A stretch of 64,000 bases of DNA, from contig JAFZUV010000007.1 of NCBI GenBank assembly GCA_017618135.1, positions 1 to 64,000 on the forward strand. Reading direction: 5' to 3'. The first letter of the stretch is position 1; every line of letters starts with the position of its first letter. Under the pieces are notes generated by a model. The model was given only the letters and a program-made list of their open reading frames with translations, searched no databases and was not told where the DNA came from. Positions 2 to 13,256 of the stretch are shown here, piece after piece. The stretch is from Clostridia bacterium. GTDB lineage: Bacteria; Bacillota; Clostridia; Oscillospirales; Acutalibacteraceae. The position numbers and the translations under genes were made by a program.

Positions 2-88
2 GCCGCTGTGGCGGAATTGGCAGACGCAAGGGACTTAAAATCCCTCGGTAGCAATACCGTACCGGTTCAAGTCCGGTCAGCGGCACCA
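2..88 (+). tRNA. tRNA-Leu (anticodon UAA)
   Basis: The 7-bp acceptor stem GCCGCTG (2-8) pairs with CAGCGGC (78-84), followed by discriminator A85 and an encoded CCA (86-88). The anticodon stem AGGGA/TCCCT closes a 7-nt loop with TAA at 36-38, which reads UUA leucine codons. A long variable arm (about 46-60), typical of class II tRNAs, and a T arm with loop TTCAAGT follow. A strong terminator begins two bases later, so this is the last or only gene of its transcript in the window. Confidence 0.97.
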
Positions 89-89
89 C

Positions 90-128
90 AAAAAACGCAT
101 CTTTTGTCTACCAAAAGATGCGTTTTTT
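90..128 (+). terminator. Rho-independent terminator after tRNA-Leu
   Basis: The 10-bp stem CGCATCTTTT (96-105) pairs with AAAAGATGCG (113-122) around a 7-nt loop and is flanked by A-run and T-run tracts, so it can work on either strand. It immediately follows the CCA end of the tRNA. Confidence 0.9.
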
Positions 129-309
129 GAATGATGTTTGCCCTATCGGGCAAATGATGTCGCTTGTGCTAACGATGTTACCTTCGGTAATGATGTGTGC
201 CTTCGGCACATTAAGAGGCGGGCAAACATCGCATCATTGATTGTGAAACAATCTACATCATTTCGGCGTAGCCTAAACATCATTAGGCGCATAGCGCTGA
301 CATCATTGA
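129..309. repeat. Mini-hairpin array 1 (ATGATGT spacer words, inverted halves)
   Basis: The left half repeats the word ATGATGT (131, 154, 172 as ACGATGT, 190), each followed by a short hairpin: TTGCCC-tatc-GGGCAA, an imperfect CGCTTGTGC unit, TACC-ttc-GGTA, GTGCC-ttc-GGCAC. A hinge ATTAAGAGG lies at 210-218. The right half carries the reverse complement ACATCAT (255, 277, 300, plus a variant at 226-237) separated by further hairpins such as GATTGT-gaa-ACAATC. The outer ends TGAATGATGT and ACATCATTGA are near-inverted copies. Open frames through it are low-complexity products of the repeat and are not credible genes. I do not recognise a named family. Confidence 0.8.
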
Positions 310-10326: not shown

Positions 10327-10668
10327 TCATTTCTCCTTTACATGAACTAGTTTGCCGCTGGGATCATAAGTTTCTTTATAGACACGAACTGTATGTCCCT
10401 CTGGATCAACAATTTTATAATAAACAGCTTTTGAGCCGGGCACTCTCCCCGGATTTTCCATCTTGATCTGATAGTTTCCATCGTTCAGTTTATCCACTGA
10501 AAACTTATCATAATGATTCGATCCACCCTTGAAAAAAGACTTTGCACTTCCTTGTATTTGTTTCGGAAGAGATGAAACTGAACCAAGAGCAGATGATTTT
10601 GATGACCCCGTGTAAATAGACGTGCCGCCTTTTGTTCCGCCAAACCCGCCGTGAAATCCAGCGCCCAT
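10327..10668 (-). CDS. Putative small toxin with Gly/Ser-rich leader
   Basis: 113 basic residues. Residues 1-35 are Gly/Ser-rich (MGAGFHGGFGGTKGG...), unlike a signal peptide. Residues about 50-113 form a compact domain with PGRVPGSKAVYYKIVD, a Y-K-E-T-YDPSGK turn and the end VHVKEK, the style of C-terminal tips of polymorphic toxins; catalytic chemistry cannot be assigned. Its ATG shares one base with the TAA of the DUF4417 gene, and the SD GGTGAG sits in a hairpin, so translation is probably coupled. The acidic gene behind it would be its antidote. The toxin call is inference from sequence style and arrangement. Confidence 0.5.
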   Translation of the reverse strand: MGAGFHGGFGGTKGGTSIYTGSSKSSALGSVSSLPKQIQGSAKSFFKGGSNHYDKFSVDKLNDGNYQIKMENPGRVPGSKAVYYKIVDPEGHTVRVYKETYDPSGKLVHVKEK

Positions 10669-11336
10669 TACTCGCTCACCGCCCTTCGGTGAGTAACCAT
10701 AAAGTCGCTGTCAAACTGCAAAATCCTGATCCCGGCAGCCTTATACTTGCCAAAAATGGCGTCAGGCGCAGTTCCGTAAACGATAATGGCTTTCGGGTTC
10801 AGCGTGTTGACCACATACTCTAGTCCGCGAATAAAGAACCCGCGCTCCTGCAAAAGTTTGATGCAGCCGTGAGAGCCGATTGCAATGGTAGCGCCTTTTG
10901 GTACACCGAGACAGCATGGCTCGTATGTACGCTCGTCACCCCATCGCACGTTAGCGATGACAGGGACGCCTTCGCTTTGCAGCCATACGGCGACCGCATG
11001 ACTGCGGTAGATGTTCCAGTGCTGCATGACAAGCGGCATATCGCGGTATAAGCTGAAATCCGGCGCGATAACACCTTTATACCGTTTGAGGATCGGCAGA
11101 TATTTGAATGGCTGATTCCAAAGCCGTTCAAATGACGCGTCGTCCTCATAAAAGTGTACCCATGCGTCGAAATCCGTTCTGCTGATCGCCTTTGAGAAAG
11201 ATATCAGTTTGGTAGGAATCGCCGTTTCAGGCGAAATGCAGGGAATTTCGAATTCGCCCTCATAGGTCGCATTCTGCACCATGAAGGCATGAAAAACGTC
11301 TTTGCACCCCTTTCGGGTGCAATTTACCTGAGACAT
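10668..11336 (-). CDS. DUF4417 family protein
   Basis: 222 residues of the DUF4417 type, recognised by the central sequence (PILKRYKGVIAPDFSLYRDM, MQHWNIYRSHAVAVWLQ, VIANVRWGDERTYEPC) and the later GSHGCIK and VYGTAPDAIFG motifs. The function is unknown; members occur mainly on phages and mobile elements. The start is set at 11336 (MSQVNCTRKGC) because AAAGGAGA lies 8 bases upstream; a longer frame would put the SD inside the gene. DNA here is visibly GC-richer than the neighbours, which suggests recent transfer. It heads a leftward three-gene cassette with the toxin-like and immunity-like genes. Confidence 0.8.
   Translation of the reverse strand: MSQVNCTRKGCKDVFHAFMVQNATYEGEFEIPCISPETAIPTKLISFSKAISRTDFDAWVHFYEDDASFERLWNQPFKYLPILKRYKGVIAPDFSLYRDMPLVMQHWNIYRSHAVAVWLQSEGVPVIANVRWGDERTYEPCCLGVPKGATIAIGSHGCIKLLQERGFFIRGLEYVVNTLNPKAIIVYGTAPDAIFGKYKAAGIRILQFDSDFMVTHRRAVSE
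10675..10693 (-). promoter_or_regulatory. Hairpin masking the SD of the toxin-like gene
   Basis: In the leftward mRNA CTCACCG and CGGTGAG form a 7-bp stem with loop AAGGG. The 3' arm contains GGTGAG, the only SD-like sequence six bases before the toxin-like ATG. Ribosomes finishing the DUF4417 frame would melt it, giving translational coupling. Confidence 0.5.
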
Positions 11337-11409
11337 AATAATTGTCTCCTTTCGGCACATTACCGCAGGGCATAAAGCTGTGCCTTAAAGAAAGATTTAC
11401 CCTGTGGCC

Positions 11410-11470
11410 GTGCCTTCCGGGCGTCTCAGATGTAATTTACCAGATTACGGGAAGAGATACCCGGAGGCAC
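11410..11470. repeat. Copy 1 of duplicated 30-bp motif inside an inverted repeat
   Basis: TACCAGATTACGGG continues to CGGAGG at 11438-11467 and is nearly identical to 11556-11585 (two mismatches in 30). The copy is enclosed by GTGCCTTCCGGGCGTCTC (11410-11427) and GAGATACCCGGAGGCAC (11454-11470), an imperfect hairpin. It lies in the 5' region of the DUF4417 gene. Unlike copy 2 it has no recognisable promoter. Confidence 0.7.
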
Positions 11471-11521
11471 AGATAGAATGATTTGTCAAGAGAGTTTTTT
11501 TGCGGAATTCACGAGAAAATC

Positions 11522-11550
11522 TTGACATCGGCTCCGAGTATCGCTATAAT
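11522..11550 (+). promoter_or_regulatory. Perfect consensus sigma-A promoter
   Basis: TTGACA (11522-11527), exactly 17 bp, TATAAT (11545-11550). It points rightward into a stretch with no gene on that strand. CTCCGAGTATC (11532-11542), inside the spacer, pairs with GATACTCGGAG (11574-11584), so a regulator or DNA hairpin could act here. Confidence 0.8.
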
Positions 11551-11556
11551 GAAAGT

Positions 11557-11634
11557 ACCAGATTACGGGTAGAGATACTCGGAGGTAAGCATTGTATTGA
11601 TTGCGCCAACAATCAATGCAGTGCTTTTCTTTTT
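11557..11634 (+). ncRNA. Predicted small RNA with copy 2 of the 30-bp motif
   Basis: A transcript from the consensus promoter would start near 11557 and end at a terminator made of AAGCATTGTATTGATTG (11587-11603) and CAATCAATGCAGTGC (11610-11624) with G-U pairs, followed by TTTTCTTTTT. That gives an RNA of about 78 nt holding the repeated ACCAGATTACGGGTAGAGAT motif and no plausible reading frame. It is antisense to the noncoding space between the ImmA and DUF4417 genes, so it could regulate the latter. The role is unknown; no known RNA family is recognised. Confidence 0.5.
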
Positions 11635-11663
11635 GCAGCGACAAGCAATTGCACCAACTCCTT

Positions 11664-12182
11664 TCAGTTTCTGTGATTAAGCTGATAGTCAGCCGCATCA
11701 TATGAGACGGCACATACTGATGCAATTTCCGCAGCGGTCATATTTCCCGTGAGATGAAAAGGCACAAGAAATTCACCGGCAAAACACTTTGCCTGCCATT
11801 CGGGATCATTAAAGTTTTTGACCTCTTGTTTGGCAAAATTGCGCTGCAGCCTGAATCCGCAAAAACAGAGCGTGAAAAAGTGCCCTATCTCATGCGCTAT
11901 TGTCATACGGTCACGCCCTTCGCCGTTGCAGGCTCTTTCATATACGCTTTCCTTGATTGTAATGTGACCCGTTCTTATATCGGTTTCGGCGTGCGTTCCC
12001 GGTGACATAGCAAGGTCGGGGACGATTTCATAGCTAAAGCCTTCAAGGATTTCCGCTAATACGTCTAACAATTCCACGATGGGAACCCAAAGTTGGTTTT
12101 CCAGTCCAAGATGCTTTCGGAGGATAAAGGCAAGGTTTCGCAAGTCTTTTCGGGAATTGCCCTCCACGATGTATTCGCTCAA
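11664..12182 (-). CDS. ImmA/IrrE-type metallopeptidase
   Basis: 172 residues with the zinc-binding HEIGHF motif at about residue 98 and a downstream AKCFAGEFLVP motif giving the third (Glu) ligand, as in ImmA/IrrE peptidases. Such enzymes cleave or antagonise a partner XRE repressor, typically on integrative elements and prophages, to switch on element genes after stress. The partner here is the XRE gene whose stop lies 3 bp upstream on the same strand. The target and trigger are not shown. There is no signal peptide, so it is cytoplasmic. Confidence 0.88.
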   Translation of the reverse strand: MSEYIVEGNSRKDLRNLAFILRKHLGLENQLWVPIVELLDVLAEILEGFSYEIVPDLAMSPGTHAETDIRTGHITIKESVYERACNGEGRDRMTIAHEIGHFFTLCFCGFRLQRNFAKQEVKNFNDPEWQAKCFAGEFLVPFHLTGNMTAAEIASVCAVSYDAADYQLNHRN

Positions 12183-12185
12183 GTG

Positions 12186-12548
12186 TTAATCCTCCTTATG
12201 GCTTTTCAGAATGTCAAACAGTTTTTTTGCGGTTTCTTCGTCAAGCGTATCAAACTTACGGGCGAATGAAACAGCAAGCTGGCGGTTTGCGGCAGACGCA
12301 TTGCGGACGTTGAGTTCAACCGTATCGCTGGATTCCGCGATAGCGTTCTTTAACTCGTCCATTTGTTGTAAAGTCAACGAATAGGCAGTTTTTAATTTAG
12401 GTAGCCATGTGTCTGGCACCTTCTTTTTTCCGTTTTCCACAGCGGAAAGGAAAGCAGAAGATACGTCGAGTTTTTTCGCCATGTCACGAAGAATCTCTCC
12501 GCTGTCTATTCGCAGCTTCCTTAAAAACTTTCCTACGCTTGTAATCAT
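12186..12548 (-). CDS. XRE-family repressor paired with ImmA-like peptidase
   Basis: 120 residues from the ATG at 12548, chosen because AAGGAGG lies 8 bases upstream; an in-frame ATG six bases earlier would be too close to that SD. Residues 5-60 are a Cro/CI helix-turn-helix (FLRKLRIDSGEILRDMAKKL, then SSAFLSAVENGKKKVP). The helical C-terminal half probably mediates dimerisation or contact with ImmA. A consensus promoter with an ATGATG/CATCAT palindrome over its -10 box lies upstream, so it likely represses itself. It forms a two-gene unit with the ImmA-like gene. Confidence 0.88.
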   Translation of the reverse strand: MITSVGKFLRKLRIDSGEILRDMAKKLDVSSAFLSAVENGKKKVPDTWLPKLKTAYSLTLQQMDELKNAIAESSDTVELNVRNASAANRQLAVSFARKFDTLDEETAKKLFDILKSHKED

Positions 12549-12576
12549 GTTCATTTCCTCCTTAACCTTATAGGTC

Positions 12577-12611
12577 ATGATGAGTATAACACATCATATA
12601 GTGTTTGTCAA
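12577..12611 (-). promoter_or_regulatory. Promoter and operator of the XRE-immA pair
   Basis: On the minus strand TTGACA (12606-12611), 17 bp, TATACT (12583-12588). ATGATG (12577-12582) and CATCAT (12592-12597) form an inverted repeat centred on the -10 box, the expected layout for repressor autoregulation. Confidence 0.75.
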
Positions 12612-12739: not shown

Positions 12740-12870
12740 GCGAAGCAAGATGTTTCACTTTTGTGATTTCGAGCGTTTAAGGTGGCCATATCTATACTAC
12801 ATACAAGTGCCTTCAAAATATGCTTTTTTACCTGTTTTACCCATTTTGCATATTCGAGCGATAATCCCAG

Positions 12871-12900
12871 AAAAATCCTCGTCTTCGGACGAGGATTTTT
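12871..12900. terminator. Bidirectional terminator-like UUCG hairpin
   Basis: AAAAATCCTCGTC and GACGAGGATTTTT form a 13-bp stem with a TTCG tetraloop, flanked by A and T runs. It sits immediately left of hairpin array 2, as the tRNA terminator does for array 1. Confidence 0.7.
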
Positions 12901-12905
12901 CAACT

Positions 12906-13030
12906 AAATCCGTCCTGCGGACGGGTGAAATCCACCTTCGGTGGGTAAAATCGCTTCGCGGTGAAATCCGACTTTGTCGGGTTAAGAGGACGGATTTAAT
13001 TTCACCGAATACTTCAGTGTTCGATTTCAC
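12906..13030. repeat. Mini-hairpin array 2 (GTGAAAT spacer words, inverted halves)
   Basis: The left half alternates GTGAAAT-type words (12925, 12945 as GTAAAAT, 12961) with hairpins CCACC-ttc-GGTGG, CGC-ttc-GCG and CCGAC-ttt-GTCGG. The hinge GTTAAGAGG is at 12981-12989. The right half has ATTTCAC (12999, 13024) around CGAATAC-ttca-GTGTTCG. AAATCCGTCC (12906-12915) and GGACGGATTT (12988-12997) are a 10-bp inverted repeat. The architecture and hinge match array 1, with a different spacer word. Frames through it are repeat artefacts. Confidence 0.8.
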
Positions 13031-13256
13031 TTTTGAATCGTTTCTTGCTTTATTCATTGCAAATCGTTTGGGATTTTTGGAAAGTAAAAGGTAAGAAGTA
13101 ATATGTAATAGAATTGATGTGGTCTCGGCTTGTATTTTATGTGCTTTTAAACCCTCCTGCCGATTTTCACGGCGGATACTTCCCAAAAGCCAAAATGTAT
13201 GATATGATTATTTCGTCTTTCACCTAATGTAAGTGCGATATGTTCCGACTCAAATG

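Follow-up and report, generated by a model that had tools for sequence, protein, structure and literature searches.

Several described systems share features with the DNA analyzed here. The intervening sequences (IVS) of 23S rRNA have inverted-repeat ends and are associated with stable RNA genes; we know of no description of arrays of hairpins and words in these sequences. REP, BIME, and REPIN elements are short dispersed intergenic DNA palindromes, mostly without a gene of their own, and the STRR of cyanobacteria are tandem 7-mers located in intergenic regions. Heptamer tandem repeats (TAACTGA) are described for intergenic regions of cyanobacteria and Beggiatoaceae (PMC4679880). Gut-1 (Rfam RF01706) appears in its discovery paper of 2010 among likely noncoding RNAs, as reported only from environmental (human gut) sequences (PMC2864571). 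PF05635 is the four-helix bundle family of the 23S rRNA intervening-sequence protein (IVP); TIGR02436 designates the same family, 2rld is a solved relative, and a resemblance to Avd of diversity-generating retroelements is noted in PMC10053308.

The window analyzed here is a stretch of 64,000 nucleotides from a Clostridia bacterium (contig JAFZUV010000007.1). An earlier note, based on its sequence, had described an array (array 2) in which hairpins alternate with GTGAAAT words on the left and ATTTCAC words on the right. These words and hairpins are present at the positions given below, one of the left words being GTAAAAT. The array is real and larger than first described, extending from 12870 to 13030, and consists of a terminator-like hairpin, a leader, four hairpins with GTGAAAT-type words between them, a hinge, and a reverse-complement half.

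12866–12869, plus strand: CCCA directly 5′ of the element (sequence ATAATCCCA then GAAAAATCC)
12870–12901, plus strand: h0, terminator-like hairpin GAAAAATCCTCGTC/TTCG/GACGAGGATTTTTC, first part of the element (14-bp perfect inverted repeat)
12901–12972, plus strand: match to Rfam RF01706, Gut-1 (65 bits, gathering score 50)
12905–12915, plus strand: leader TAAATCCGTCC, complementary to the hinge (inverted repeat I3; family-wide test)
12910–12924, plus strand: hairpin h1, CCGTCC TGC GGACGG, which competes with the leader-hinge helix (sequence, DNA fold, Rfam match)
12925–12931, plus strand: left word 1, GTGAAAT (word search)
12932–12944, plus strand: hairpin h2, CCACC TTC GGTGG (sequence, Rfam match)
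12945–12951, plus strand: left word 2, GTAAAAT, with one mismatch (sequence)
12952–12960, plus strand: hairpin h3, CGC TTC GCG (sequence, Rfam match)
12961–12967, plus strand: left word 3, GTGAAAT (word search)
12968–12980, plus strand: hairpin h4, CCGAC TTT GTCGG (sequence)
12981–12998, plus strand: hinge GTTAAGAGGACGGATTTA, of which the part GGACGGATTTA is an inverted copy of the leader (sequence, inverted repeat, family test)
12982–12989, plus strand: TTAAGAGG within the hinge (sequence)
12999–13005, plus strand: right word ATTTCAC, reverse complement of the left word (word search)
13006–13023, plus strand: hairpin h5, CGAATACTTCAGTGTTCG, with an imperfect stem (sequence)
13024–13030, plus strand: last right word, ATTTCAC (sequence)

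Array 2 stands above chance, both by its Gut-1 score and by DNA fold z-scores of -2.7 (plus strand, 12900–13035) and -6.9 (minus strand, 12868–13032, a stretch that takes in the strong left hairpin). The latter hairpin, h0, carries an A run and a T run. It had been regarded as a strong terminator standing immediately to the left of the array; the hairpin is indeed there, but it is not separate, since several other copies of the array carry it too. As h0 is common to several dispersed copies in two other genomes (G183 and G088), it belongs to the element. The arm formed by the leader is thus able to pair either within h1 or with the hinge. The right half of array 2 is shortened, with one hairpin versus three in the sister copy L003; both arrays end in ATTTCACTTTTG, and the absence of two hairpin-word units from array 2 corresponds to a word-to-word loss. 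With h0, a leader complementary to the hinge, and inverted halves sharing a word, array 2 has the architecture of the family described below.

The left half of array 2 and those of many other copies exceed the gathering score of Gut-1. In contrast to the arrays, the Rfam model spans three hairpins of one half and omits h0, the hinge, the inverted half, and the linked gene. At gathering scores, only Gut-1 and one tRNA were detected by Rfam in the window; array 2 is not inserted in a 23S rRNA gene. The genome containing the window (1.63 Mb, 99.7% complete) harbored 11 Gut-1 matches at E ≤ 0.001, five of which were above the cut-off. Matches were found in 66 of the 150 genomes of the taxonomic family, 33 of the 41 genomes of the genus, and 126 of the 295 genomes of the order; among the 14 control genomes included in each search, one, E. 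coli, gave a match below the cut-off. A 19-base hinge signature retrieved 41 stretches in named genomes, 39 of which were titled Clostridia or groups within Clostridia, many from ruminant gut, the others being from one Gammaproteobacterium and one Bartonella metagenome-assembled genome. The array family is widespread in gut Clostridia.

Rfam types RF01706 as "Gene; sRNA", which raises the possibility that Gut-1 is a trans-acting small RNA whose hairpins and GUGAAAU words bind a protein or targets. The stems covary, as they would also do if the product were an RNA. This explanation is at odds with the position of the array behind a terminator-like hairpin, with its inverted second half, and with the distribution of the matches, up to 36 in one genome and none in 84 of the 150 genomes of the taxonomic family. 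It is also at odds with the loops, which were analyzed in 354 hairpins. On the anti-word strand, 170 of the 229 triloops were of the GNA type and 95 of the 125 tetraloops of the GNNA type. The third base of the latter was a purine in 47 cases (GNRA) and a pyrimidine in 48 (GNYA), indicating that these are not GNRA loops. On the word strand, UNCG was found once and GNRA was not found. In a separate count of triloops, 173 of the 179 loops of the GNA kind had a C-G closing pair. For stems of at least 6 bp, the patterns C(G..A)G or C(T..C)G were present in 71 of 113 array hairpins versus 54 of 295 hairpins located outside the arrays in the same loci. Loops of the cGNAg and cGNNAg types are exceptionally stable in DNA. 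Thus, most loops conform to what is expected of very stable DNA hairpins and not of RNA tetraloops, and the loop statistics speak against the treatment of Gut-1 as an RNA by Rfam. Energies alone do not decide the matter since the anti-word strand was more stable with DNA parameters (better in 112 and worse in 3 of the 354 hairpins) and RNA parameters (better in 101 and worse in 16) alike. We consider the small-RNA explanation unlikely.

The words of array 2 and of array 1, a second member of the family present in the window, had been considered as unrelated.

2–88, plus strand: tRNA-Leu(TAA), directly 5′ of array 1 (tRNA search)
89–307, plus strand: array 1, comprising h0, ATGATGT words with hairpins, the hinge ATTAAGAGGCGGGCAAACAT, the leader ATGTTTGCCC, and ACATCAT right words (sequence)

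This view does not stand: GTGAAAT and ATGATGT both fit the pattern RTGAWRT, and array 1 also matches Gut-1 weakly at 129–221 (31 bits, E 2.7e-4, under the cut-off and the weakest of the 11 matches of the genome). The anatomy of the relatives was established from 130 loci fetched around Gut-1 matches. They contained 441 distinct word-hairpin-word units, among which 331 hairpin sequences could be distinguished, and the stem filled the entire gap between the words in 406 of these units. The words, from a search restricted to RTGAWRT, were GTGAAAT (276), ATGAAAT (87), GTGATAT (41), and ATGATAT (23), and more rarely ATGATGT (5), GTGAAGT (5), ATGAAGT (3), and GTGATGT (1). In a word-free search, 71 of 180 loci contained chains with a repeated spacer (90 chains in total), compared with zero when each locus was shuffled once. 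An automatic list of elements, also confined to RTGAWRT words, retained 99 of 139 groups after removal of 40 groups without a callable orientation, and 77 of the 99 elements were included in a test of word agreement. The left and right words were identical in 62 of the 77 elements (permutation mean of 40; 62 was reached in none of 10,000 permutations), a result that leaves out array 1 and arrays with other words because of the RTGAWRT restriction of the list. The arrays differ from REP, BIME, and REPIN elements with RAYT in that a single word links many distinct hairpins, and this word varies between families. One array of the genome containing the window (L010, G000:C17:254495-254573) is a hybrid, with ATGATAT-type words on the left and GTGAAAT/ATTTCAC elsewhere, which suggests recombination between word families.

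The octamer TTAAGAGG had been proposed as the hinge shared by the two arrays and, by extension, by an element family with a fixed architecture and a variable word. The architecture, the presence of a hinge, and the variability of the word were all observed, but the octamer was rejected as the family hinge since it was present in only 5 of 79 hinges. Nor was it enriched in the window (3 occurrences versus 2.3 expected). What is conserved in the hinge is complementarity to the leader of the same element, of which it carries an inverted copy. Perfect complements of at least 8 bases were found in 69 of 75 elements versus 8 of 1500 shuffled hinges, and the longest complement of 19 distinct leaders had a mean length of 10.1 with their own hinge and 6.2 with other hinges. 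In array 1, the pairing involves ATGTTTGCCC and GGGCAAACAT.

The arrays are dispersed. The best local alignment of array 2 (L001) and L003 spans TTTTTCAAC to ATTTCAC, and both h0 and the flanks differ. Two loci, L157 and L158, are copies of one unit comprising an array and a PF05635 gene, aligned over 448 bases; L157 sits behind tRNA-Arg(CCT), and the array of L158 is entered by a frame encoding a recombinase zinc-ribbon domain (PF13408, 40.7 bits). These two copies are alike in the array and the initial part of the four-helix gene and then diverge sharply, as if the second part of the gene had been exchanged; their h0 hairpins differ by a paired two-base change affecting both arms. Dispersal of the array family is supported by these data, and the family is probably mobile. 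No precise empty site was seen for any hairpin array, which counts against the mobile-element reading. A clean empty site was found for a word-only unit, which splits cas1 and cas2 in two Nostocaceae plasmids, the two genes being adjacent in two other Nostoc plasmids. The orthologous site of array 2 was sought through the downstream epimerase gene in 61 genomes of the genus (48 matches, including that of the genome itself; 30 loci fetched, 29 of which were from relatives). An RTGAWRT word cluster was found in none of the 29 relatives, a weak result given identities of at most 67%. Beyond its own genome, the upstream flank of array 2 gave only two short matches among 40 genomes.

The arrays show a preference for the 3′ end of tRNA genes. 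In the 84 elements with enough upstream sequence, an intact tRNA gene on the same strand directly preceded 40, with 14 kinds of tRNA represented and a distance of 14 to 44 nt between the end of the tRNA and the leader. Among the other 44 elements, CCA was found just before the A-run of h0 in 23 (24 according to the script, which counted a match located inside the h0 loop of L114), leaving 21 of the 84 elements with neither an intact tRNA nor CCA before h0. At a tRNA-Lys locus compared between two species (G183 and G161), the upstream flank was 80% identical and the elements trailing the tRNA differed in h0 and word. For the locus of G183, the contigs of G169 and G157 break off at the tRNA 3′ end or no more than 2 nt from it, an observation that fits a repeat and proves nothing. 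Two four-helix loci located in a tRNA-Leu context displayed direct repeats of 45 and 48 bases. In L015 and L028, a second, partial tRNA 3′ end was present before h0, some distance from the intact tRNA, as if later integrative elements had pushed the array and the tRNA apart. No tRNA was recognizable upstream of array 2, where only CCCA/ATAATCCCA precedes h0; the CCCA is possibly a decayed tRNA 3′ end.

We regard it as fairly probable that array 2 belongs, as a shortened copy without a gene, to a dispersed family of DNA-hairpin elements often located directly behind tRNA genes. The direct observations behind this reading are the architecture, the multi-copy dispersal, the preference for tRNA 3′ ends, the loop rule, the agreement of the words, the leader-hinge complementarity, and the linkage to PF05635. 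A passive origin, in which slippage and template switching generate palindromes and words near terminators with no element or protein involved, and duplication of tRNA neighborhoods spreads them, would be compatible with the visible signs of slippage: array 2 is short of two units of L003, and Planktothrix plasmids vary in word copy number at one locus. It would also be compatible with the presence, on one contig, of two tRNA-Pro genes each with a similar array (L036). We nevertheless consider it quite unlikely since the arrays are common to copies whose flanks are not, the loop rule and the leader-hinge pairing are conserved, and the arrays are strongly tied to a single gene family.

This gene family answers the question, raised by the earlier note, of a gene co-occurring with the arrays: PF05635 tracks them. 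A four-helix reading frame was found directly downstream, in the same orientation, of 9 of the 99 oriented elements, and farther off on the other side of two additional ones. A near-copy of an array-linked frame matched PF05635 with 88.7 bits. Among the 150 genomes, 54 had both Gut-1 and PF05635 matches, 12 only Gut-1, 16 only PF05635, and 68 neither (Fisher p 5e-15, without correction for phylogeny). Thus, PF05635 was unmatched in 12 of the 66 Gut-1 genomes, including G088 with its 11 Gut-1 matches, which counts against the mobile-element reading. The surroundings of 51 PF05635 genes, located in 50 loci, were compared with those of 47 control frames of at least 150 codons from the window. The sample was not random: 10 loci were picked automatically, 20 by hand from a list, and 20 regions were selected (15 from Gut-1-negative genomes, 4 from the genome of the window, and 1 from a genome of the same genus). 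Chains of at least 3 hairpins were present upstream of 12 of the 51 genes versus none of the 47 controls, and inverted words flanked 18 of the 51 genes versus none of the controls. A 6-mer statistic at a threshold of ≥3/3 was reached by 27 of the 51 genes versus 3 of the 47 controls and 21 of 1020 shuffles. This threshold was used alone because ≥2/2 was too lax (47 of the 51 genes, 33 of the 47 controls, and 565 of the 1020 shuffles). The words of PF05635-linked arrays included AGCTAAAT (L172), GTTATGA (L177), TTTTATT (L167), and AACGATGT (L170), which differ markedly from those of arrays 1 and 2, as well as GTGAAGT (L171) and ATGATGT (L168).

Array 2 has no PF05635 gene in the window, all four matches of its genome being located outside, the nearest on the same contig at C17:133303-133599. 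Since these four genes lack the GTGAAAT word, array 2 has no matching partner gene in this genome.

Plasmid and phage records provided 28 PF05635 matches, 12 of which were fetched. Tandem words were inverted around the PF05635 gene in all 10 plasmid loci (inverted-repeat scores of 38 to 76), which originate from cyanobacteria, Bacteroidota, Treponema, and Clostridia, and a hairpin array preceded the gene in both phage contigs. Six of the 10 plasmid units (L216, L217, L218, L219, L221, and L223) lie inside or beside defence-type genes: between cas2 and cas1, between drmD and pglX or MmeI, between hsdS and hsdR, or by a helicase and a methyltransferase gene. In the Planktothrix plasmids (L218 and L219), the unit is located behind the same gene with different copy numbers of the 7-mer word. 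Like the heptamer repeats of cyanobacteria, the word arrays are tandem 7-mers located in intergenic regions; the terms "four helix", "S23", and "IVP" are absent from the main text of the heptamer-repeat report (PMC4679880), and no title or abstract start among the open-licence PMC papers listed by literature searches ties PF05635 to word arrays. The gene-bearing units share with the IVS of 23S rRNA the protein family (PF05635, TIGR02436), inverted-repeat ends, and an association with stable RNA genes but, unlike the IVS, the array copies examined are located downstream of tRNAs, on plasmids, or within or between protein-coding genes.

In the hairpin-type units, the array is directly upstream of the gene, as expected if it were a regulatory leader or an RNA antitoxin of the four-helix gene (autoregulation or a system resembling type III toxin-antitoxins), orphan arrays then being remnants. 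We hold this to be very unlikely since inverted words are present on both sides of the gene in the 18 cases and the 10 plasmid loci mentioned above and a gene is downstream of only 9 of the 99 oriented arrays.

Y1 enzymes use single-stranded DNA hairpins. The arrays might thus be hairpin substrates of an IS200/IS605 or RAYT (Y1) transposase, forming a REPIN-like element; Y1_Tnp genes were indeed present in 8 of 10 array-rich genomes, and a chain of at least 3 hairpins was found near 2 of 12 inspected Y1 genes (L324 and L325). Against this, the array-rich genomes G088 and G139 gave no Y1_Tnp match, none of the 12 inspected Y1 genes (8 genomes) had an RTGAWRT word cluster nearby, a difference from REP, BIME, and REPIN elements with RAYT, and the hairpin chains of L324 and L325 had no common word. 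On the latter two grounds Y1/RAYT was rejected as the driver, and we judge this explanation very improbable. Other palindromes, around GGGGACGGTTCT, flank the Y1 genes of L316, L318, and L319; they form a REP-like family with no relation to the word arrays. Reverse transcriptase was also rejected as the driver: RVT_1 was present in 3 of the 10 array-rich genomes and absent from 7, including that of the window, a difference from Avd and its diversity-generating retroelements.

The preferred reading is that of an element whose full unit is h0 - leader/h1 - (word + hairpin)n - hinge - (hairpin + word′)n, followed in some copies by a PF05635 gene. The hairpins would act as single-stranded DNA. Replication slippage would keep the words alike within one half, and intramolecular template switching on single-stranded hairpins would keep the arms and the halves complementary. 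In combination, the two processes would leave the word free to drift and preserve the architecture and the symmetry. The four-helix protein, a relative of Avd, may recognize hairpins or junctions and help insertion at tRNA 3′ ends; to our knowledge, no catalytic activity has been reported for PF05635. We tentatively propose, as a possibility held with less confidence than the reading of array 2 itself, a new class of mobile elements present in several phyla. Their sole gene would encode the four-helix protein, and their ends would be inverted arrays of a drifting word of ~7 bp, with or without hairpins. They would favor tRNA 3′ ends, and their halves would be kept complementary by self-templated copying rather than by a fixed sequence read by a transposase.

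If this proposal is correct, the new class would account for the Gut-1 "RNA" and for at least part of the cyanobacterial heptamer repeats. What Rfam lists as a noncoding-RNA family would turn out to be the DNA component of a mobile element, and the protein family of the 23S rRNA IVP, an orphan family and kin of Avd, would gain a testable role. A terminal word that changes as symmetry is kept would set these elements apart from sequence-specific transposons and would render the old question of the heptamer repeats testable.

Directly to the left of array 2, the minus strand of the window carries, at 10668–12578, a DUF4417 gene, an IrrE/M78 peptidase-like gene, and a weakly matching HTH regulator, which may be the end of an integrated element. 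A direct repeat of 30 nt (93% identical, 118 apart) is present at 11438–11467 and 11556–11585.
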